Shown piece after piece: positions 1,689 to 12,680 of a stretch of 23,588 nucleotides of DNA. Each line of letters starts with the position of its first letter. Positions within the stretch are counted from its first letter, which is position 1. This DNA comes from DASVDK01 sp036562265 [NCBI: Thermodesulfobacteriota bacterium] (GTDB lineage: Bacteria > DASVDK01), in the NCBI GenBank assembly GCA_036562265.1, contig DATCKS010000523.1, forward strand, positions 1-23,588, in the 5' to 3' direction. The notes beneath the pieces are model-generated. The model did no database searches and had not been told where the DNA came from. It saw nothing but the letters and a program-made list of their open reading frames with translations. Position numbers and translations under genes: made by a program.

Positions 1689-2894
1689 GTGAGGGTCCAG
1701 GACTCTGGCACCGACGGGGTGGCCGCCCTGGCGACCGCCCTGCCGGCGGCGCTCGCGCGGGCGGCGGGGGCCTACGGCGGGGTGTTGCTCGTCGCCGACG
1801 AGCCGGGCGGCGATCTCGTCCCGCGGGGGGTCGCCGCGGCCGACCGGCGGCGGCTGCCGCCGACGCCGCGCACGGGAGGGGAGTTCCCGGCGCTCGCGGC
1901 GACGCATCCGCTGGCGCGCTGGCTCGCCGAGCGGGGCGTCGCGCTCGCCCGGGGCGGCGCCGGGGAGCCGCCCGAGGGGCGCACGTGGCTCGCCGACCTC
2001 GGACTCGACGCGGCGCTGGGGCTCGTCGAGCCGGAGGCCCGGCGGCTCGCGGGGGCCGTCCTGCTCAGCGGGGGGACGCGGCCGCTCGGCCGCCGCCGTC
2101 TCGCCGCCTTGCTCGAGACGTCGGCCTTGAAGCTCGAGGCGGCGCGGCTGCGCGATCGGCTCCGCACGACGCAGGCGGCGCTCGAGCGGGCGGAGCGGCT
2201 CGTCGCGCTCGGCACGCTGACCGCCTCGCTGGCGCACGAACTCAAGAACCCGCTCGTGGCCATCCGCACGTTCGCCCAGCTCCTCCCCGAGCGCTACGAC
2301 GACCCCGACTTCCGCGGCCGCTTCGCGCCGATCGCCCTCGCGGAGATCGACCGGGCGACGTCGCTCCTCACCGAACTGCTCGACTTCGCGCGCGCGCCGA
2401 GGGACACGGCCGCGCCGGTCAGGTCGCTCGAGCCGGCCGACGTGAACGCGATCCTGGGTCAGATGCTGACCCTGGCCGAGGCGGAGGCACGCGGCCGGCG
2501 CATCCGCATCGCCCGGCGGCTCGACCCGAGCCTGCCGCGCGTGGTCGCCGACCGCGACCGGATGAAGCAGCTCTTCCTGAACCTCCTGCTCAACGCCATC
2601 GAGGCGATCGACGGCGACGAGGGGGAGGTCACCGTCGAGACGGCGACGCGCGTGGAGGCGGACGGGGCGTTCGTCGCGATCGACGTGAGCGACACCGGCA
2701 GCGGCATCGCACCGGCCGACCTCCCCTCGCTCTTCACCCCGTTCTTCACCCGCAAGCCGTCGGGCGTCGGCCTCGGGCTCTCCGTCTGCCGGGACATCGT
2801 GCACGCGCACAGCGGCCGCATCGAGGTCCACAGCGAGCCGGGCCGCGGCACGACGGTGCGCGTCCGGCTCCCCGTGGCGGGGGCGGCGTCGTGA
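1689..2894 (+). CDS. Sensor histidine kinase (GAF-like, HisKA, HATPase_c), soluble
   Basis: Two-component histidine kinase of 401 residues. GTG start with GGAGG six bases upstream. Residues about 10-145 look like a divergent GAF sensor. A short coiled coil leads to the HisKA dimerisation domain with phospho-acceptor His183 in SLAHELKNPLVAIRTF. The ATPase domain is complete: N-box NLLLNAIEAI, G1 DTGSGI, F-box LFTPFFTRKPSG and G2 VGLGLSV. No transmembrane segment is visible, so it should sense a cytoplasmic or partner-borne signal. The stop overlaps the next GTG (GTGA), and an NtrC-type regulator lies two genes on, making it an NtrB-like cognate kinase by context. The signal is unknown. Confidence 0.93.
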   Translation: MRVQDSGTDGVAALATALPAALARAAGAYGGVLLVADEPGGDLVPRGVAAADRRRLPPTPRTGGEFPALAATHPLARWLAERGVALARGGAGEPPEGRTWLADLGLDAALGLVEPEARRLAGAVLLSGGTRPLGRRRLAALLETSALKLEAARLRDRLRTTQAALERAERLVALGTLTASLAHELKNPLVAIRTFAQLLPERYDDPDFRGRFAPIALAEIDRATSLLTELLDFARAPRDTAAPVRSLEPADVNAILGQMLTLAEAEARGRRIRIARRLDPSLPRVVADRDRMKQLFLNLLLNAIEAIDGDEGEVTVETATRVEADGAFVAIDVSDTGSGIAPADLPSLFTPFFTRKPSGVGLGLSVCRDIVHAHSGRIEVHSEPGRGTTVRVRLPVAGAAS

Positions 2895-4711
2895 CGCGCC
2901 GCCGCCGGATCCTCGTCGTCGACGGCTCGCCGAGCGTGCGGGAGTCGGTGCGCATGATCCTCGGGGCCGAGTACGAGGTCGTCACCGCCGCGTCGCCGGA
3001 GGACGCCGTCGCCGAGGCGGCGCGGCAGCGCCCCGACCTGGTCCTCGCCGGCGGGCCGGCCGGCCAGCCGCGGCGCCCGGCGGGCGCCGCCCCCTGGGCG
3101 GCGCGACTCGCGCGCGACCTCGGCGCGACGTCCGTCGTCGAGCTGACGCTCCCCTTCGGCGTGGCCGACCTGCGCGGCCGCGTCCGGCGGGCGCTCGCCG
3201 CCGGCGCCAGCGAGCCGGCCGCGGCCGAAGAGGCGGCGGTGCCCTGGCCGCCCGGGTTCGTACGGGCGCTCCTCGAGACCGCCGATCCGTCGGGCCGGCT
3301 CGGCCGCGTTGCCGCGTCCGCCGCGTCGACGGGGCTGCCCGTGCTCCTGGTGGGCGAGCGGGGAACGGGGCGGGAGAGCCTCGCGCGAGCCGTCCACGCG
3401 GCCGGACCGGACGCCGCCGGGCCCTTCGTCGTGCTCACCTGCGCGGGGCTCACGCCCGAGGCGCTCGAGTCGAGGCTCGCGCGCGTGACGGCCGCGGGCG
3501 CGCGGCCGACGCTCTTCCTCAAGGGGGTCGACGACGCGAGCCCGGCGCTCCAGGCGGCCCTCCTCGAGCGGCTCGCCGACGGGCGGCTCGGTCGCGGCGC
3601 GCGGCCGATCGCGTCGGCCTCCGAGGCGCTCGACCAGCGCCTCGAGTCGGGCGCCCTGGACGAGGCGCTGGTCGAGGCGCTCGGCGTGCTGCGTCTCGAC
3701 CTGCCGCCCCTCAGGGAGCGGCCGGAGCTGATCGCCGCCCTCGCGCCGTTCATGTTCGAGCGGATTCGCGAGGAGGGACGGCTGTCGCGCACCTGCCGGC
3801 TCACCCCCGAGGCGCAGGCGCGGCTCGCCGCCTACGTGTGGCCCGGGAACCTGACGGAACTCTCGCGGGTGCTCGCGCGCAGCGCCGCGCTGGCCGACCG
3901 CGACCTGCTCGACGCCGACGAGGTCGATTTCGGGTTCGGCGCGGCCTCCGCGCCGGCCGAGGAGGCCGCCCGGCCGCCCCGAGGGGCCGGCGTCGAGAAC
4001 GGCCACGAGCCGGCGCCGCCGTCGCCGGCCGCCGATCGGCACTTCGCCGCGCTCGCCGCCGAGCTGGCGCACGAGATCAAGAACCCGCTCGTGGCGATCA
4101 AGACGTTCACGCAGCTCCTCGGCGAGAAGTTCGACGACGCCGAGTTCCGGCGGGAGTTCTACGCGGTGGTGCGGCGCGACGTCGAGCGGATCGACCACCT
4201 GGTGGAGGGGGTCCTCCACGCGGCCGACGCCGTGCCGACCGAGCCGCGCCCGACCGATCTCAACGCGGTCCTCGAGGCGGTGCTCCGCGAGAGCGAGGGG
4301 TGGATGGTCGAGCGGAGGGTGGTCGCCTTCAAGGACCTCGGCGACCGGATCCCCATGGCGCTCACCGACCCGGCGCAGGCCCGGGCGGCGCTCTTCAACG
4401 TCGTCGCGCGGGCCCTCGCCTCGCTGCCGGCCGGCGAGGACCTGTTCCTCGCCACGCGCGGCTCGCGCGACGGCGTCGAGGTGGTCGTGAGCTACCGCGA
4501 CGCGAGCCCCCACGGCGTGGGGCTCCTCGGCGAGCGGGGCGAGGAGCTGGAGCTGACGCTGGCCCGTGCGGCGCTCGAGCGCGCCGGCGGCCGGCTCACG
4601 GTGCGGCGCGAGCCCGGCGGCCGGACGACCGTCGCGCTCGGCTTCCGTGCGGCGGAGGCCGAGCGGCCGGTCCAGCCGGTCCGGCCGGTGCCGGGCCGTC
4701 GAATGGCCTGA
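2891..4711 (+). CDS. Chimeric pseudo-receiver / pseudo-NtrC AAA+ / HisKA-pseudokinase protein
   Basis: A 606-residue protein starting at GTG 2891, overlapping the upstream kinase stop. Residues 1-105 follow a receiver fold (ILVVDG...PDLVLAGG), but the acidic pair is DG, the phospho-acceptor Asp is replaced by Ala/Gly, and the TKPF lysine is TLPF. Residues about 130-340 match an NtrC AAA+ module (TGLPVLLVGERGTGRE, LDLPPLRERPELI, VWPGNLTEL). However, Walker A Lys is Arg161, Walker B LFLDE reads LFLKG, and the GAFTGA loop is missing. Residues about 385-600 are a HisKA domain keeping His394 (AELAHEIKNPLVAIKTF), then an ATPase-like region without recognisable N, G1 or G2 boxes. Reading frame and codon use are intact, so this is not a decayed gene. 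A scaffold, phosphotransfer partner or allosteric subunit is inferred. Confidence 0.85.
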   Translation: MTRRRRILVVDGSPSVRESVRMILGAEYEVVTAASPEDAVAEAARQRPDLVLAGGPAGQPRRPAGAAPWAARLARDLGATSVVELTLPFGVADLRGRVRRALAAGASEPAAAEEAAVPWPPGFVRALLETADPSGRLGRVAASAASTGLPVLLVGERGTGRESLARAVHAAGPDAAGPFVVLTCAGLTPEALESRLARVTAAGARPTLFLKGVDDASPALQAALLERLADGRLGRGARPIASASEALDQRLESGALDEALVEALGVLRLDLPPLRERPELIAALAPFMFERIREEGRLSRTCRLTPEAQARLAAYVWPGNLTELSRVLARSAALADRDLLDADEVDFGFGAASAPAEEAARPPRGAGVENGHEPAPPSPAADRHFAALAAELAHEIKNPLVAIKTFTQLLGEKFDDAEFRREFYAVVRRDVERIDHLVEGVLHAADAVPTEPRPTDLNAVLEAVLRESEGWMVERRVVAFKDLGDRIPMALTDPAQARAALFNVVARALASLPAGEDLFLATRGSRDGVEVVVSYRDASPHGVGLLGERGEELELTLARAALERAGGRLTVRREPGGRTTVALGFRAAEAERPVQPVRPVPGRRMA

Positions 4712-4723
4712 CGAGGAGACCCC

Positions 4724-6190
<1,467 letters not shown>

Positions 6191-6207
6191 CAAGTAGCGG
6201 AAACGCG

Positions 6208-6237
6208 CCCCGCGCGGGGGGCCCGGCCGAAGGCCGG
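6208..6237 (+). terminator. Two adjacent GC hairpins after the NtrC-type gene (possible weak terminator)
   Basis: CCCC-GCGC-GGGG (6208-6219) is followed by CCGGCC-GAA-GGCCGG (6223-6237), beginning 17 nt after the stop codon. No U-tract follows, so intrinsic termination is uncertain; RNA 3'-end stabilisation or Rho-linked termination is equally possible. Confidence 0.35.
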
Positions 6238-6340
6238 AGCGCCGTGACGCGGGCTCGTGGGCGGCGCGCGGACACGGGGTGGGGCGCTCCCGCCGCCGCG
6301 CCGGCGTGACGCCCTTTGGCGGCATGGGCGCACAAAGTTG

Positions 6341-6464: not shown

Positions 6465-6480
6465 TGGCAAGCGCCTTGCA
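6465..6480 (+). promoter_or_regulatory. Sigma-54 (-24/-12) promoter
   Basis: TGGCAAGCGCCTTGCA matches the sigma-54 consensus TGGCACRNNNNTTGCW at every fixed position except one (A for C at position 6), with exact GG-to-GC spacing. It lies 39 nt upstream of the receiver-HD-GYP start codon, so transcription would begin near 6491. The gene immediately upstream encodes an NtrC-family activator, which such a promoter requires. Confidence 0.75.
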
Positions 6481-6519: not shown

Positions 6520-7689
6520 ATGAGCCAGGCCACGATCCTCGTAGTGGACGACGAACTGGGCCCGCGAGAATCGTTGCGGATGATCCTCAAGCCGTCGTAC
6601 GAGGTCCTGACCGCCGAGAGCGGCGCGCGGGCGCTCGAGCTTCTGCGCGAGCGCCGGGTCGACGTCGTGACGCTCGACCTCAAGATGCCCGGCCTCTCGG
6701 GCACCGAGGTGCTGGAGGCGGTGAAGGGGCTCGATCCGCGGATCGAGGTCATCATCATCACCGGGTACGGCTCGCTCAAGAGCGCCACGGAGGCCATCCG
6801 GTACGGCGTGGCGGACTACATCGCCAAGCCGTTCAACGTGGCCGAGATCCTCTCGGTGGTCGACCGGGCCGTCGCCCGGCGCGATCAGGCGCTCAAGGTG
6901 GACGCCCTCCTCAAGGGGCTCGAGGCCGACGGCGGAACGGGCGACGGGGAGCGCCGCGCCGGCTCCGCCTTCGCCGCGCTGCGGCAGCGGCTGCGGGGCC
7001 TCGTGCAGCGAGAGCCCGGCCAGCGGGCCGCCGCGCCCATCGACTCCCTCGAGTTCGTCAAGGTCCTCGCCGCGGCCCTCGAGAGCAAGGACGCCTACAC
7101 CCACGGCCACTCGCAACGCGTCGCGCACTACGCCGCCATCCTCGGGCAGGACCTCGGCCTCTCCGACCGCGAGCTGCGCGATCTGCAGATCGGCTCGTTC
7201 CTGCACGACATCGGCAAGGTGGGGGTCTGCGAGCAGTACATCAAGAAGCAGGGGCGGCTCACGCCGGAGGAGTGGGCGGTCGTCCGCGCGCACCCGGAGA
7301 AGGGGGCCGAACTGATCGCCCCGCTTCGCCTCGGGCCGGCCGTCGTCTCGGCGGTGCGGCACCACCACGAGCGGATCGACGGCCGCGGCTTCCCCGATCG
7401 GCTCGGCGGCAGCGACCTCTCCGTCACGGCACGCATCGTCTGCATCGCCGACGCGTACGACGCGATGACTTCCGATCGGCCCTACCGGCGGGCCCTCTCG
7501 CGCGACGCGGCGCGCCAGGAACTCAAGCGTTGCGCGGGCACCCAGTTCGACCTCGACTTCGTGGAGCGCTTCCTGCGGGTGCTCGACAAGCACCCCTGGC
7601 TCGACCAGAACAGCGAGGCGCCGGTGAAGAACGGACGGGTGGTATCTGGCGCCTGGGCCGGCGGGATCCTCGCTGGAGGACACGCATGA
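6520..7689 (+). CDS. Response regulator with HD-GYP c-di-GMP phosphodiesterase output
   Basis: RpfG-type protein of 389 residues. ATG start preceded by GGAGAG. The receiver (1-120) has VDDE, phospho-acceptor Asp53 (VVTLDLKMPG), ITG and IAKPF. A linker of about 50 residues leads to HD-GYP (about 170-370), beginning SLEFVKVLAAALESKDAYTHGHS. Metal and catalytic motifs are present: His229-Asp230 in LHDIGK, HHHERIDGRG, and IADAYDAMT. The signature tripeptide reads GFP (290-292) rather than GYP, a conservative change. It should hydrolyse c-di-GMP to pGpG or GMP under phosphorylation control. A sigma-54 promoter lies upstream, and its stop overlaps the PilZ gene (ATGA), indicating one operon. Confidence 0.94.
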   Translation: MSQATILVVDDELGPRESLRMILKPSYEVLTAESGARALELLRERRVDVVTLDLKMPGLSGTEVLEAVKGLDPRIEVIIITGYGSLKSATEAIRYGVADYIAKPFNVAEILSVVDRAVARRDQALKVDALLKGLEADGGTGDGERRAGSAFAALRQRLRGLVQREPGQRAAAPIDSLEFVKVLAAALESKDAYTHGHSQRVAHYAAILGQDLGLSDRELRDLQIGSFLHDIGKVGVCEQYIKKQGRLTPEEWAVVRAHPEKGAELIAPLRLGPAVVSAVRHHHERIDGRGFPDRLGGSDLSVTARIVCIADAYDAMTSDRPYRRALSRDAARQELKRCAGTQFDLDFVERFLRVLDKHPWLDQNSEAPVKNGRVVSGAWAGGILAGGHA

Positions 7690-8444
7690 CCGACCTGGCA
7701 ACGCGCACGCCCCGCGAGGGCGGCAAGCGGATCCTCGTGGTGGACGACGTGAAGCTCTTCCGCGACCTCGTGCACATCGTCCTCGGCGGCACCGGTTACG
7801 AGATCCTCTCCGCCGAGAACGGGCGGGAGGCGCTCGAGATCGCGCGGCGCGAGCGGCCCGATCTGGTGCTCCTCGACCTCTACATGCCGGAGATGGACGG
7901 AGCGGCCACCTGCCGCGCGATCCGCGGCGAGCCGGCGCTGGCGGACATCCCGGTCATCATGGTCACCTCGGGCGGCGACCCGAGCGAGGTGGCGCGCTGC
8001 GTCGAGGCGGGGTGCGACGACCTCGTGCTCAAGCCGATCCGCCGAGGGCCCCTCGTCCGGAAGATCACGGGGCTCGTCGACGAGCGCGCCTTCCAGCGGG
8101 TGCGCGTCCCGGTCGACGTGCCGGTCGAGTTCGGACCGGCCACGGACCGCGTGGGCCGCGCGGGCCGGGCCGTCAACATCAGCGCCGGCGGCCTCTTCGT
8201 CGAGACGCCCGAGCCGGCCGACTGCGGCACCGACCTCGCGCTCTCCTTCGTCCTGCCGGTCGCCGAGACGAGCGAACCGGTCACCGCGACCGGCCGCGTC
8301 GCCTGGGTCAACGGCCACCCGGAGCGGCGCAAGCGCGACTGCGGGCCCGGCATGGGGATCGCCTTCCGCGACCTGTCCGACGCCGGCCGCTCGGCCATCA
8401 CCCGCTTCGTCCGGATCCGCCGCCGCGCGGCGCTCGTGGCGTAG
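7686..8444 (+). CDS. Receiver-PilZ protein (c-di-GMP-binding response regulator)
   Basis: A 252-residue protein whose ATG overlaps the HD-GYP stop codon (ATGA), so it is probably translationally coupled. The receiver (about 14-128) has VDDVKLF, phospho-acceptor Asp64 (LVLLDLYMPEMDG), MVTS and LKP. The PilZ domain follows at about 130-245. It carries the c-di-GMP-binding pattern RxxxR as RAFQR (134-138) and NxSxxG as NISAGG (164-169), then GRVAWVN and GMGIAF strands. It would sense the nucleotide degraded by the preceding gene product and be tuned by phosphorylation. Output is probably protein-protein, as no DNA-binding or enzymatic domain is seen. Confidence 0.92.
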   Translation: MTDLATRTPREGGKRILVVDDVKLFRDLVHIVLGGTGYEILSAENGREALEIARRERPDLVLLDLYMPEMDGAATCRAIRGEPALADIPVIMVTSGGDPSEVARCVEAGCDDLVLKPIRRGPLVRKITGLVDERAFQRVRVPVDVPVEFGPATDRVGRAGRAVNISAGGLFVETPEPADCGTDLALSFVLPVAETSEPVTATGRVAWVNGHPERRKRDCGPGMGIAFRDLSDAGRSAITRFVRIRRRAALVA

Positions 8445-8445
8445 A

Positions 8446-8476
8446 GTCAGGAGGGGGGCTCCGCCCCCCTCCTGAC
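8446..8476 (+). terminator. Perfect 14-bp hairpin after the receiver-PilZ gene
   Basis: A 14-bp perfect stem (8446-8459 with 8463-8476) closed by the loop TCC starts 2 nt after the stop codon. This is the position and strength expected of an operon-end terminator. It lacks a U-tract; AACCTCCCC follows. Confidence 0.55.
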
Positions 8477-8581
8477 AACCTCCCCATTCTCTCAATCGCT
8501 CCGGGCGGAGTGAATCCGCCCTCCGCTCCAGACGCACCGCCGGTGTCTCCGTCACCGACCCTCCGCCCCCCTCCTGACAAC
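8459..8581. repeat. Direct repeat pair of 21 nt (8459-8479 and 8561-8581)
   Basis: The loop and 3' arm of the hairpin, running from CTCCGCC to CTGACAAC, recur exactly 102 bp downstream at 8561-8581 without the matching 5' arm. The pair may be remnants of a duplicated terminator-like element or of an extragenic repeat family. Confidence 0.7.
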
Positions 8582-8816
8582 TCGCCAATGGCAACAGCGA
8601 GTCGCGCCACGCAGGCGGCGCAACCTCCCCGTGGCGCGATCCCCCCGGCGGCAGCAGGTCGGGCCTCCGCTCCAGATGGGCGGCGACGTCCCGACGACAG
8701 GTGACGGAGAGGCGCGCCGGAAGGGTGGCGCGGCCTTCCGATGACGTGATGACTCGCGGCGGCGTGCGTCCGACCGTCGCTCCGGAGCGACCCGTGGGCG
8801 GCGGCACCGCCGGTCC

Positions 8817-8845
8817 TTGATTTTCGGGAGCCGAAGCAGTAGCTT
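8817..8845 (+). promoter_or_regulatory. Possible sigma-70 promoter upstream of the GAF-HD-GYP gene
   Basis: TTGATT (8817-8822), a 17-nt spacer, then TAGCTT (8840-8845). The -35 match is good and the -10 weak. This is the most AT-rich stretch in the region and lies about 95 nt upstream of the chosen start codon. Confidence 0.35.
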
Positions 8846-8938
8846 GACTCTCCGAGAGGTGATCTTCCTCTCAGTTCTCCGTCACGCGTGATGCCATTCG
8901 CCCCTCGGCGGGCATACCTCGGGGAGAGGCAGGCCGTC

Positions 8939-10645
8939 GTGTCTTCGTCGTCGGTGGTCCTGATCGACAGGGCCAACCACTTCACCGACGAGTACTTCAG
9001 CGTGCTCACCGACAGGAAGTTCACGGTCCGTCGGGTGACGAGCCTGGAGGAGGCGGAAGTCGCGATCGCCCAGGGCCGGGGCGAGGCGCCCGACCTGCTC
9101 CTCCTGAACGGCTCGGGCCGGCCGCCCGCCGAGACGGTGAGCGACCTGGTCCGGCTGCGCGAGCGGCACCCGGACCTCCCGGTGATCCTCCTGGTGCTCG
9201 CGCCGGATCCGGCGCTGGCGGCGCGCGCGCGCGCGCTCGGAGCCGCTGCCGTGCTGGCCGCCCCCTGGCTGCCGCGCGACGTCGTCGCGGCGTTCGAGCA
9301 GGCGAGCGAGACGCGGCGCCGCCGGCTCGCCGCGGCCCGCGCGCGGACCGACTCGTACGAGGTCGTGCGGGCCCGCCTCGAGGCCGAGACCCGGCGGGCC
9401 AACGACCTCGAGCGCGCCAACGCGCGGCTCGCCCGCGAACTCGAGGCGGCGCGCGAGGCCGCCTCGCGCATCGGCGAGACGCTCAAGGTGATCCAGCGCC
9501 AGAAGGCGACCCTCGACACCCGCCTCGCCCAGATGCGTGCCGTGGCGGCGCTCTCGGCGTCGCTCGCCGGACGGCGCGACGGCGAGACCATCGCCGAACT
9601 GGTCGTCCGCGAGGCGGCGCGGCTGCTCGGCGCGGACGCCGCGGCCCTTAGGCTGCTCGACGACGGGCAGCCCGAGTCGCTGCGCCCCCGCTTCGTGCTC
9701 GGTGGCGGCACGGCCCCGCTCGCGGAGATCCGCCGCGGGGAGGGGATCCAGGGATGGGTGGCGGAGACGGGTCGCCCCCTGGTCGTTTCCGACGCGTCGC
9801 GCGATCCCCGCGTCCTGCCGCAGGAGCGGGCCGGCCGCAACGGCGAGCGGATCGCCTGCGTCCCGGTGGCGGTGCGCGACCGGATCCTCGGCACGCTCAT
9901 CCTCAACCGCACCGGCAAGCAGGCCCCGTTCACGAGCGGCGACCTCGAGCTTCTGGCCACGCTGGCGGCGCAGGCCGGCGTGGCGCTCTACCAGGCCGAG
10001 CAGGCCGCGGCGATCGAGCAGGGGTACCTCGCCTCCATGCACGCCCTCGTACGGAGCATCGAGGCGCGCGACCCGGCCCGCGTCGACCACTCGGACAACG
10101 TCGCCTTCTTCTCGCTCAGGCTCGCGCGCGCCATCGGCCTCGACGAGGCGCGCCAGACGGTCCTCAGGCGGGCCGCCCTGCTCCACGACGTGGGCCAGGC
10201 GCTCATCAGCACCGCGATCAGCGGCAAGCGCGACCGGTTCACCCCGACGGAGCTCGCGGTCATGCGGGAGCACCCGGTGCTCGGGCACCAGATGCTCGAG
10301 CCGGTCGAGTTCCTCGGCGAGGCGCGGGCCGTCGTTCGCGACCATCACGAGCGCTTCGACGGGGCCGGCTACCCCGACGGCCGCTGCGGCGAGGACCTCT
10401 CGCTCGAGACCCGCATCGTGTCGATCGCCGAGGCGTTCGATTCCATGACGCGCGAGCGCGCGTACGGTCCCGCTCTCTCGGTGGAGGCGGCCGTCGCGGA
10501 GCTGCGCGCCCACCGGCGCACCCAGTTCGACCCCGATCTGGTCGATCGGTTCGTGGAGCTCATCGACAGCGACGGGACGGGGACGGACCTCGCCGAGGAG
10601 GCGCCGCGCGTGGCGGAGGCGGCCGGCGGCGGCGCCGCCGCGTGA
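8939..10645 (+). CDS. Pseudo-receiver / coiled-coil / GAF / HD-GYP protein
   Basis: GTG 8939 is chosen because GGGGAGAGG lies nine bases upstream and the fold begins at once (SSVVLIDRANHF). Starts at 8888 or 8891 in the same frame lack a ribosome binding site. The product has 568 residues. Residues 1-115 resemble a receiver, but the phospho-acceptor is Asn57 (LLLLNGSG) and there is no KP loop. A coiled coil spans about 125-190, a GAF domain about 195-355, and HD-GYP about 360-550. HD (416-417), DHHERFDG and GYP (477-479) are kept. HDIGK reads HDVGQ (Gln420), and the usual ADAxDAMT reads AEAFDSMT (Glu498 for a metal-ligand Asp). C-di-GMP phosphodiesterase activity is therefore plausible but not assured. 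The next gene follows after 10 nt. Confidence 0.9.
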   Translation: MSSSSVVLIDRANHFTDEYFSVLTDRKFTVRRVTSLEEAEVAIAQGRGEAPDLLLLNGSGRPPAETVSDLVRLRERHPDLPVILLVLAPDPALAARARALGAAAVLAAPWLPRDVVAAFEQASETRRRRLAAARARTDSYEVVRARLEAETRRANDLERANARLARELEAAREAASRIGETLKVIQRQKATLDTRLAQMRAVAALSASLAGRRDGETIAELVVREAARLLGADAAALRLLDDGQPESLRPRFVLGGGTAPLAEIRRGEGIQGWVAETGRPLVVSDASRDPRVLPQERAGRNGERIACVPVAVRDRILGTLILNRTGKQAPFTSGDLELLATLAAQAGVALYQAEQAAAIEQGYLASMHALVRSIEARDPARVDHSDNVAFFSLRLARAIGLDEARQTVLRRAALLHDVGQALISTAISGKRDRFTPTELAVMREHPVLGHQMLEPVEFLGEARAVVRDHHERFDGAGYPDGRCGEDLSLETRIVSIAEAFDSMTRERAYGPALSVEAAVAELRAHRRTQFDPDLVDRFVELIDSDGTGTDLAEEAPRVAEAAGGGAAA

Positions 10646-10655
10646 CACCCGCTCC

Positions 10656-12680
10656 ATGGCCACGCCGCTTCCAGCCACTCGCCAGTCGGGCTTCGCGCAC
10701 CGCGACGTCTGGCAGCCGATCCAGGACGGGCTCGCGCGCCTGTCGGGGCTGCGCATCGTGCTGCTCGGCGCGTCGGGCGAGGCGTGGTCGACCCCCTCGG
10801 GCGTCCTGGCTCCGGCGGTCGAGCGGATCGAGGCGCGCGGGGAGGCGTCGCGCGAGCGGGCGCTCCTGGCCGCCAGGGTGCGCGGGGAGCCGATCACCTA
10901 CCTGGCGTCCACCGGACTTCAGGCCTTCGTCGTGCCGGTCGACACGCCGCAGGGGCGCGTCTTCCTCGCGGGGGGGCACGCCTTCCCGGCGCCGCCCGAC
11001 GAGGGCCACCGCCAGCGGCTCGCGCGCGACCTCGGACTCGACGCGGACGGGCTCGACGCGCTCCTCCAGAGCCTCCCGGTCCTCGCGCCGGCGGCGTTCC
11101 GCGCCCTGGTGCAGACGCTCGACCGGGTAGCCCGCTCGGTCCTCGGGGGGCTCGGCGAGGCCGACCGGGCGCGCCGGCAGGTGGACCGCGCCTCCACGCT
11201 CTTCGCGCTCGCACCCGACCTGGTCGACACCGGCGCGACCGCCGACGGCGAACAGCTCGCCCTCCAGGCGATCGGCGTGCTCTTCGACGTGCCCGCCGCG
11301 GCCATCCTGACGCGGGAGCCGGGGGCGGACACCTACCGCGCGGCAGCCGCCTTCGGCGCGCCGGGGCTCGACCTGGCCGGTCTCGTCGTGCGGCCCGGCG
11401 GCGCCGGCGCCTTCGGCCGGGCCCTCGCCGCGCCCGAAGGGCCCGCGCAGCCGATCGAGACGCGCGACGTGTACGAGATCCTCAAGTCGGGTTTCCCGGG
11501 GGAGGTGCAGAGCGTCCACGCCTTCCCGATGGCCGACGGGCACGGTTCGCTCCTGGTCCTGGTCAACGCCGACCTCGGCCGCGCCGACGTGGACCTCGTC
11601 GCGGCCTTCGCCAGGCAGGCGGGCGTCGCCCTCGAGACGCGGCGCCTCAGGCTCGAGGTGGCCCGTCGCGAACGCGACCTCGCGGCCCTCGCGGAGGCCG
11701 GCGGCGCGGTGTCGTCCGCGCTCGACTCGACCGAGCTCTTCCGCATGATCCTCGAGAGCGCCGCCGCCATGGTCGGCGCGAACCTCGGCTCCCTCATGCT
11801 CCTCGACGAGGCCCGCGGCGAGCTGGCCATCAAGGCCACCAAGGGGCTGCACGAGCGGATCGTCGAGCAGTTCCGGATCCGGCCGGGGGAGGGGATCGCC
11901 GGGATGGTCGCCGCCACGCGGGAGGCGATGCTCGTGCGCGACGTCGAGACCGACGCGCGCGTCGGCCGGCGCAACCGGCCCCGCTTCAAGAGCCGCTCGT
12001 TCGTGAGCCTGCCGCTGCTCGTGAAGGGACGGGCCATCGGCGTCCTCAACCTCGCCGACAAGGCCGGCGGCGAGCCGTTCGACGAGACCGACCTCACGCT
12101 GCTGTCGGCCGCGGCCGCCCAGGCGGCCATCGCCATCGAGCGCTCGGCCTTCTACGAGCGGTCCGAGGCGCTCAAGCGGATCTCGATCACCGACGGCCTC
12201 ACCGGGCTCCTCAACCGGCACTACTTCGAGGAGCGCCTCACCGAGGAGATCGACCGCGCGACGCGGACGAAGTCCCACGTGAGCCTCGTCATGATCGACA
12301 TCGACGGCTTCAAGGCGTTCAACGACACGCACGGGCACGTGGAGGGCGACCAGGCGCTGCGGCTCACGGCGGCGAGCATCCGGGGGGCGGTGCGCACGAT
12401 GGACATCGTGGCGCGCTACGGTGGGGAGGAGTTCGCGGTGATCCTGCCCGAGACGGGCCGCGCGGAGGCGATCGCGATCGCGGAGCGGATCGTGCGGGAG
12501 GTCGAGGCGCTGACGCACATCGTCGAGGGGGAGAGCATCAGGCTCACGATCAGCGCCGGGGTGGCCGAGTTCCCGGACGACGCCTCCTCGCTGCGCGAGC
12601 TGATCGTCCGGGCGGACAAGGCCCTCTACGCGGCGAAGGCGGCCGGGAAGAACCGGATCGGCGTCCCGCCGTCCCGCTAG
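10656..12680 (+). CDS. Sensory diguanylate cyclase (PocR-like, GAF, GAF, GGDEF)
   Basis: A 674-residue cytoplasmic enzyme predicted to make c-di-GMP from two GTP. Residues about 15-130 resemble a PocR-type ligand-binding domain (tentative). Two GAF domains follow at about 195-325 and 345-505. The GGDEF domain (about 515-670) contains DGLTGLLNRHYFEE and DIDGFKAFNDTHGH. The active site is GGEEF at 589-593, and the product-inhibition I-site RTMD (580-583) sits exactly five residues before it. The cyclase should thus be active and feedback-inhibited. ATG 10656 lies 10 nt after the HD-GYP gene with no clear Shine-Dalgarno, suggesting coupling. Synthesis and degradation proteins are therefore encoded together. 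Confidence 0.94.
   Translation: MATPLPATRQSGFAHRDVWQPIQDGLARLSGLRIVLLGASGEAWSTPSGVLAPAVERIEARGEASRERALLAARVRGEPITYLASTGLQAFVVPVDTPQGRVFLAGGHAFPAPPDEGHRQRLARDLGLDADGLDALLQSLPVLAPAAFRALVQTLDRVARSVLGGLGEADRARRQVDRASTLFALAPDLVDTGATADGEQLALQAIGVLFDVPAAAILTREPGADTYRAAAAFGAPGLDLAGLVVRPGGAGAFGRALAAPEGPAQPIETRDVYEILKSGFPGEVQSVHAFPMADGHGSLLVLVNADLGRADVDLVAAFARQAGVALETRRLRLEVARRERDLAALAEAGGAVSSALDSTELFRMILESAAAMVGANLGSLMLLDEARGELAIKATKGLHERIVEQFRIRPGEGIAGMVAATREAMLVRDVETDARVGRRNRPRFKSRSFVSLPLLVKGRAIGVLNLADKAGGEPFDETDLTLLSAAAAQAAIAIERSAFYERSEALKRISITDGLTGLLNRHYFEERLTEEIDRATRTKSHVSLVMIDIDGFKAFNDTHGHVEGDQALRLTAASIRGAVRTMDIVARYGGEEFAVILPETGRAEAIAIAERIVREVEALTHIVEGESIRLTISAGVAEFPDDASSLRELIVRADKALYAAKAAGKNRIGVPPSR

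Follow-up and report, generated by a model that had tools for sequence, protein, structure and literature searches.

Three disabled enzyme domains around one constant histidine in an apparently undescribed bacterial signalling family

The gene at positions 2891–4711 of the forward strand in a 23,588-nucleotide stretch from DASVDK01 sp036562265 (assembly GCA_036562265.1, contig DATCKS010000523.1; the whole stretch is called the window below) is a member of an apparently undescribed bacterial signalling family, in which three enzyme domains are disabled and the phosphate-carrying histidine is constant. The encoded protein consists of a receiver, an NtrC-type AAA+ domain and the HisKA and HATPase-like parts of a histidine kinase, and its gene lies between an intact sensor kinase gene and an intact NtrC gene. 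Judged from sequence, and with moderate confidence, it derives from a kinase and docks onto receivers as a partner of the adjoining NtrC, most likely as a histidine phosphotransferase resembling Spo0B, ChpT and PhyT that would also hold NtrC in check.

The frame is open throughout its 606 codons. Its GTG start overlaps the TGA stop of the kinase as GTGA (2891–2894), and 12 bases separate it from the NtrC gene. Third-position G+C is 0.964 (0.93–0.99 in blocks along the gene), next to 0.968 in the kinase and 0.978 in NtrC, in agreement with the preliminary description, which had reported an intact frame with codon use like that of its neighbors. Pfam recognizes only the separate domains, namely Sigma54_activ_2 (8.5e-19), AAA_lid_14 (7.5e-11) and HisKA (1.7e-10), with Response_reg (20.2 bits, cut-off 30.2) and HATPase_c (15.1 bits, cut-off 26.4) below their thresholds. 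Among 25 of 42 NCBIfam matches listed, none reaches its own cut-off.

The catalytic losses named in the preliminary description were confirmed, most of them by alignment to the adjoining NtrC. The pseudo-receiver (residues 1–105, 2891–3205) retains the first acid, D11, followed by G12, and carries Gly at the phospho-acceptor Asp (LVLAG) and Leu at the Lys position (LTLPF). In the pseudo-AAA+ core (residues 140–274, 3308–3712), Walker A reads GERGTGR with R161 in place of the Lys, and Walker B reads LFLKG. The GAFTGA tip is wholly missing, as had been described, but the deletion is smaller than the 22 residues first given: the span from Walker A to Walker B comprises 50 residues compared to 65 in NtrC, about 15 fewer. 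Also lost are the Asn of sensor I, the Arg of sensor II and the two arginine-finger positions; the AAA+ lid (residues 275–357, 3713–3961) retains its WPGN motif. The HisKA helices, also termed DHp (dimerization and histidine phosphotransfer; 4046–4228), hold an intact His394 in the context LAHEIKNP, together with Asn398, Pro399 and Val401. The following CA (catalytic and ATP-binding) domain (4229–4651) is degenerate, and the N, G1 and G2 boxes of active kinases were not found in the window protein; the ATP motifs are gone as claimed, but the CA domain itself is still recognizable, with an hhalign probability of 99.7% for the C-terminal part of the family against neighboring kinases. A Fis-type DNA-binding domain is missing too, with no HTH_8 match in the window protein or in six scanned homologs. 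A predicted structure from a six-row alignment of the window protein and proteins of related loci adds little, because its mean pLDDT (predicted local distance difference test) is 63, which is low confidence, and the 50 PDB matches listed are all NtrC-family AAA+ proteins.

Homologs were sought in groups of related genomes (L and G numbers denote loci and genomes). G002 is the genome of L002 (Olavius algarvensis Delta 4 endosymbiont); of 395 genomes in its phylum, 29 gave a match at 1e-28, and the match reaches HisKA in 27. The class of G118 gave matches in 37 of 148 genomes, 29 of them into HisKA, including three already counted; a second search of these 148 genomes added nothing further. With the window NtrC as query, 19 of the 148 genomes in this class matched at 1e-100; 16 loci found in this way were fetched, the three genomes left out having a known member already, and nine carry a further member that the window protein had missed as a probe. 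The homologs total 62 (27 + 26 + 9), which gives 63 members with the window; counts out of 54 refer to the window and the members found before the nine late ones. The first 28 members, window included, group together apart from 24 NtrC rows in the AAA+ tree (support 100/99, NtrC rows L026 and L042 left out) and apart from 24 kinases in the HisKA/CA tree (support 100/100, seven other kinases left out). The inner order, including the place of the window, is unsure because of long branches.

Other searches returned no member. A contig scan with the window protein yielded six loci, and the three that were opened (L001–L003) hold ordinary NtrC or kinase genes; no relative was among 13 pattern matches in viral contigs. 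Around G001, none of 60 genomes matched at 1e-30. In its phylum 19 of 297 matched at 1e-25; no match extended beyond residue 392, and no member was seen. The absence around G001 is soft, since four candidates were scored per genome in the phylum search and the window-protein probe misses divergent members. Of G701–G703, one gave no match and two gave matches ending by residue 350. Among the open-licence literature matches listed, no title or abstract start concerned a receiver-AAA+-HisKA protein; subscription papers lie mostly outside this search.

The preliminary description held that selection maintains the gene, and the relatives bear this out. Whole-gene dN/dS (the ratio of nonsynonymous to synonymous substitution rates) is 0.08–0.44 in the 12 pairs of relatives, out of 13, that have a computable dS, as simple Nei-Gojobori counts that are uncorrected for base composition and include several dS values near or at saturation. 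That the window copy has merely decayed in this genome, or is an assembly artefact, is extremely improbable. Such a history would suit a copy on a long branch that has lost both Walker A and Walker B and whose close relatives are outside the sample, but 62 homologs share the same core and conserved neighbors, the relatives show the dN/dS values just given, and the coding signature is intact. A local pseudogene and an assembly fusion were rejected on these grounds.

The three enzyme domains, which the label “triple pseudo-enzyme” had put side by side for the window protein, are of unequal weight in the family. The receiver is present in 41 and absent in 13 of the 54 members; this trait changes at least four times on the tree, which is read as loss. 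Its Asp is lost in 40 of the 41 receiver-bearing members (30 with Gly), and its Lys is retained in 28. In the AAA+ part, the Walker A Lys is retained in 25/54 members, and Walker A and Walker B are jointly plausible in 6/54. Homologs with partly intact motifs thus exist, yet the GAFTGA loop is missing in 54/54. L024:8007-10010 is the least degraded AAA+ member, which keeps the Walker A Lys, the DE of Walker B, both arginine fingers and the sensor II Arg and has no GAFTGA. At the other extreme, eight divergent members out of 63 (L090, L092 and L100–L105) have lost the P-loop start GE-x-G; they have no recognizable receiver and retain the helix ELAHE-x-x-NPLVTIKTF or a close variant. N-box-like and G-box-like motifs occur in 2/54 and 3/54 members, respectively, the window protein not being one of them. 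The dead AAA+ domain and receiver would be remnants of an NtrC-type ancestor and may add NtrC contacts in the less degraded members.

As judged from the alignments, the HisKA helix is the core of the family. The His, for which the preliminary description had noted a well-kept context in the window protein, is invariant in 63/63 members together with Asn at H+4, Pro at H+5 and Val at H+7 (counted from the His), and Glu at H+1 is kept in 51/63. Mean pairwise identity peaks in the HisKA part (0.48 versus 0.24–0.37 elsewhere, 63 rows). In 11 of 13 pairs this part also shows the lowest dN/dS (dN for pairs with saturated dS), with values for the CA part of up to 0.75. The H+4 Asn position is used by HisKA phosphatases, and the acid at H+1 is also used in that reaction. 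The family protein could accordingly be a phosphatase or phosphate sink whose HisKA helix docks phosphorylated NtrC and strips the phosphate without a relay, as a tunable off-switch. The invariant Asn and the conservation of the receiver-facing helix agree with this alternative, but the H+1 acid is missing in 12 of the 63 members and the His in none; we regard it as possible, though rather doubtful.

The preferred reading, a phosphotransferase that docks onto receivers, draws further on the docking surfaces. Positions H+4 to H+16 are taken here as the side of the helix that faces the receiver, an assumption based on kinase-receiver complexes. Helix alpha1 below the His is the bound one in such a complex (PMC3433190). 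Over 32 loci, identity to the adjoining kinase is 0.77 in H+4 to H+16 and 0.28 in helix 2, so the family protein and the kinase probably bind the same receiver and have different dimer partners. A heterodimer or dimer exchange with the kinase was considered and is unlikely, given the diverged helix 2. On the receiver side, the docking helix of NtrC and that of a fourth gene (6520–7689 in the window) are identical at 0.50 of positions over 33 loci, compared to 0.19 with 17 other receivers. The Asp motif is kept in 42/42 readable NtrC and 35/36 fourth-gene receivers, and the Lys motif is kept in both kinds. By sequence, the kinase, its dead counterpart and two receivers that appear to be live therefore seem to use the same docking code, and this common code and the invariant His are why a phosphotransferase like Spo0B, ChpT or PhyT fits. 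A pure scaffold or decoy, which would hold kinase and NtrC together while its His takes no part in any chemistry, would be in line with the dead catalytic sites of the window protein and with the adjacent kinase and NtrC genes in many loci. A scaffold, however, needs no invariant phospho-accepting His, yet the residue is constant across 63 diverged members, and this alternative is quite improbable.

Several observations weigh against the proposed phosphotransfer. The H+4 to H+16 match to the own kinase (0.77) is no better than that to kinases of other loci (0.79), and the receiver helices are as similar between loci as within one (0.50 in both cases), so shared ancestry could explain both helix matches. 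Active kinases likewise conserve HisKA more strongly than CA (0.77 versus 0.56). The HisKA part is not the lowest in two of the 13 dN/dS pairs (L015-L020, 0.43; L022-L027, 0.36), and the acid after the His is replaced by Arg in nine members, Gln in two and Lys in one. Lastly, no upstream kinase matched within the stretch read in 12 loci (eleven of the L041 type and L089) or at the orphan locus L040.

Most NtrC proteins linked to members are altered in the very loop that the members lack. The second Gly of GAFTGA is Asn, Asp or His in 49 of 53 linked NtrC (43, from which partial or split rows had been dropped, plus L080 and the nine late loci) and Gly in L024, L074, L090 and L092. Among other NtrC-like frames of the loci analysed, 1/28 is non-Gly (19 past a motif filter, plus nine), and so is 1/10 in kinase-NtrC pairs that have no member in the stretch read (L043 with GAFTHA; Gly in L044, L045 and L093–L099). 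Fisher's test of 49/53 against 1/28 gives 3.5e-16, a value that is not a probability because the rows are related. At this position in NorR, the variants G266D and G266N are no longer repressed by the regulatory domain but remain able to activate (PMC2941729), and GAFTDA and GAFTHA in Desulfovibrio activators are held to remain functional (PMC4641369). A link between the altered loop and the dead-enzyme partner is suggestive on this sequence evidence. In two members, L090 and L092, Gln follows the His (LAHQLKNP), and both pair with NtrC that keep GAFTGA.

The altered loop would also suit a modulating subunit, whose dead AAA+ domain joins NtrC rings through its AAA+ and lid surfaces and poisons or tunes them, with HisKA merely recruiting it. 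Columns invariant over 28 rows include residues of the lid and of PLRER, and the GAFTGA loop is absent from all 54 members. The arginine-finger, sensor I and sensor II positions, however, vary among these 54, and the P-loop is gone in eight members that keep the HisKA helix, which lowers ring poisoning as the main function. Overall, the modulating subunit is unlikely.

In the window, the kinase gene (1689–2894, plus strand; Pfam HATPase_c 1e-28, HisKA 1.5e-13) has intact HisKA and HATPase parts and is the presumed phosphate source. The intact NtrC-type regulator (4724–6190, plus strand, loop GAFTDA) is the most constant neighbor in relatives, more so than the kinase. NtrC lies directly downstream in 48/54 members, or 48 of the 51 with a continuing contig. 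The contig ends at the NtrC position in L021, L023 and L088, NtrC is absent there in L018 and L040, and L015 has an NtrC-like partial frame about 620 bases downstream. Contig ends truncate some of the linked NtrC frames, and two are split over two frames (L073:1916-3373, L080:2473-3838). An upstream HisKA/HATPase kinase with a comparable HisKA part occurs in 32 loci; those scanned in L022, L030 and L065 have 7TM (seven-transmembrane) and GAF parts, for which the window kinase gave no Pfam match. Nine of the eleven L041-type loci carry a divergently oriented NtrC in place of the kinase. A coarse kinase pattern gave no kinase in the loci to which it was applied, but it fails to pick up receiver-kinases known from those loci and is discounted here. 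At L040 (G097), neither kinase nor NtrC matched beside the orphan member, which comes after an MreB-like gene and has ftsZ on its upstream side and a YggS-like gene on its downstream side (BLAST and by eye).

The fourth gene (plus strand) encodes a receiver with an HD-GYP-type output, matches the NCBIfam NosR family below cut-off (1.6e-63) and has the receiver helix RESLRMIL in common with NtrC. A further receiver gene is found in 36 loci, window included; in the scanned cases it is a receiver-HD-GYP gene in the window and L030 and a receiver-kinase in L022, L041, L064, L069, L078, L079, L082 and L089. An ftsZ gene (346–1620) directly precedes the signalling cluster of the window. Positions 6520–12,680 form an apparent cyclic di-GMP gene run of receiver-HD-GYP, receiver-PilZ, GAF-HD-GYP and GAF-GGDEF, the last three assigned by eye. 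A sigma54-like site with one mismatch (6465–6480) lies about 40 bases before the receiver-HD-GYP gene; the promoter scan of the window gave two sites versus 1.8 expected, which is no evidence. Opposite the cluster, a minus-strand ATG frame of 1288 codons (2459–6325) is probably an effect of the 73% G+C of the window. By eye, the gene immediately before the kinase is beta-ketoacyl synthase-like in L028, L030, L034, L035 and L038; in L024 and L039 such a gene lies a few genes away.

The family falls among kinase-derived phosphotransfer or pseudo-kinase proteins, as a variant. It displays the HisKA-like helices with a conserved His (63/63) and the CA-like domain without ATP motifs that mark histidine phosphotransferases. 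By contrast, the GAFTGA loop and Fis-type domain of a sigma54 activator are missing, and in the window protein also the Walker A Lys and Walker B acids, the phospho-accepting Asp of a receiver (here Gly) and the ATP-binding boxes of an active HisKA kinase. To our knowledge, PhyT has no receiver or AAA+ domain, and neither ChpT nor Spo0B has a fused receiver or AAA+ part. By analogy, the nearest working model appears to be PhyT of alphaproteobacteria, which takes phosphate from the extra receiver SdrG, gives it to PhyR and holds unphosphorylated PhyR (PMC5898713). PhyT likewise has a degenerated kinase catalytic part and a conserved His and works with kinases, SdrG and PhyR, but it is anchored in the membrane, and the regulator that it serves, PhyR, has an anti-sigma factor as its target (PMC5898713). 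ChpT and Spo0B, compared by features, share the helical hairpin with the phospho-carrying His, and the CA-like domain of ChpT makes no use of ATP (PMC3433190, PMC11210211). In L030, the flanking genes resemble the PrsK/PrsR system (TIGR02916/TIGR02915): the 7TM-GAF kinase scores 176 bits against a cut-off of 300, and the NtrC regulator 469 bits against 502.6. Both thus stay below the cut-offs, and the flanking genes of the window reach 89 and 395 bits. PrsK, PrsR and PrsT are named for that system and no gene of the present kind in the available part of its description (PMC1569441). Caulobacter NtrC also has an AAA+ domain without the sigma54 contact motif GAFTGA, but it has a DNA-binding domain where the family protein has HisKA and CA (PMC12421884). 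Bacterial pseudo-receivers and pseudo-histidine kinases have lost key receiver residues or kinase functions in a similar manner; the available part of that account describes no receiver-AAA+-HisKA protein (PMC12632262).

In the proposed mechanism, the kinase would phosphorylate a receiver, either that of the fourth gene or NtrC itself. The His of the family protein would take the phosphoryl group and pass it to NtrC or take it back off, and the unphosphorylated family protein may sequester NtrC in the way that PhyT holds PhyR. We infer from sequence both that transfer takes place and which way it runs. More tentatively, the protein may be a phosphorelay hub: an ancient fusion of NtrC-type regulator and kinase, catalytically emptied, whose His passes phosphate between the kinase, the second receiver and a dedicated, loop-altered NtrC, so that the dead-enzyme partner, in place of the activator's own receiver, would now control the activator. 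The preliminary description had suggested a scaffold or a phosphotransfer or allosteric partner linking kinase and NtrC. Selection, the recurring domain order, the conserved His394 and the two usual neighbors make a linking partner the right kind of answer; the choice among these roles lies beyond sequence, which leans toward receiver docking with phosphotransfer.

The family combines three disabled enzyme domains with one invariant His, under selection and in a recurring four-gene setting. Because the intact partners adjoin the gene, the role of a pseudo-receiver and pseudo-kinase becomes directly testable. The loop change of the linked NtrC offers a second handle, given the release of NorR from its own regulatory domain by Asp or Asn (PMC2941729). 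If the relay holds true, phosphorelays would extend to this group of NtrC/sigma54 regulators.

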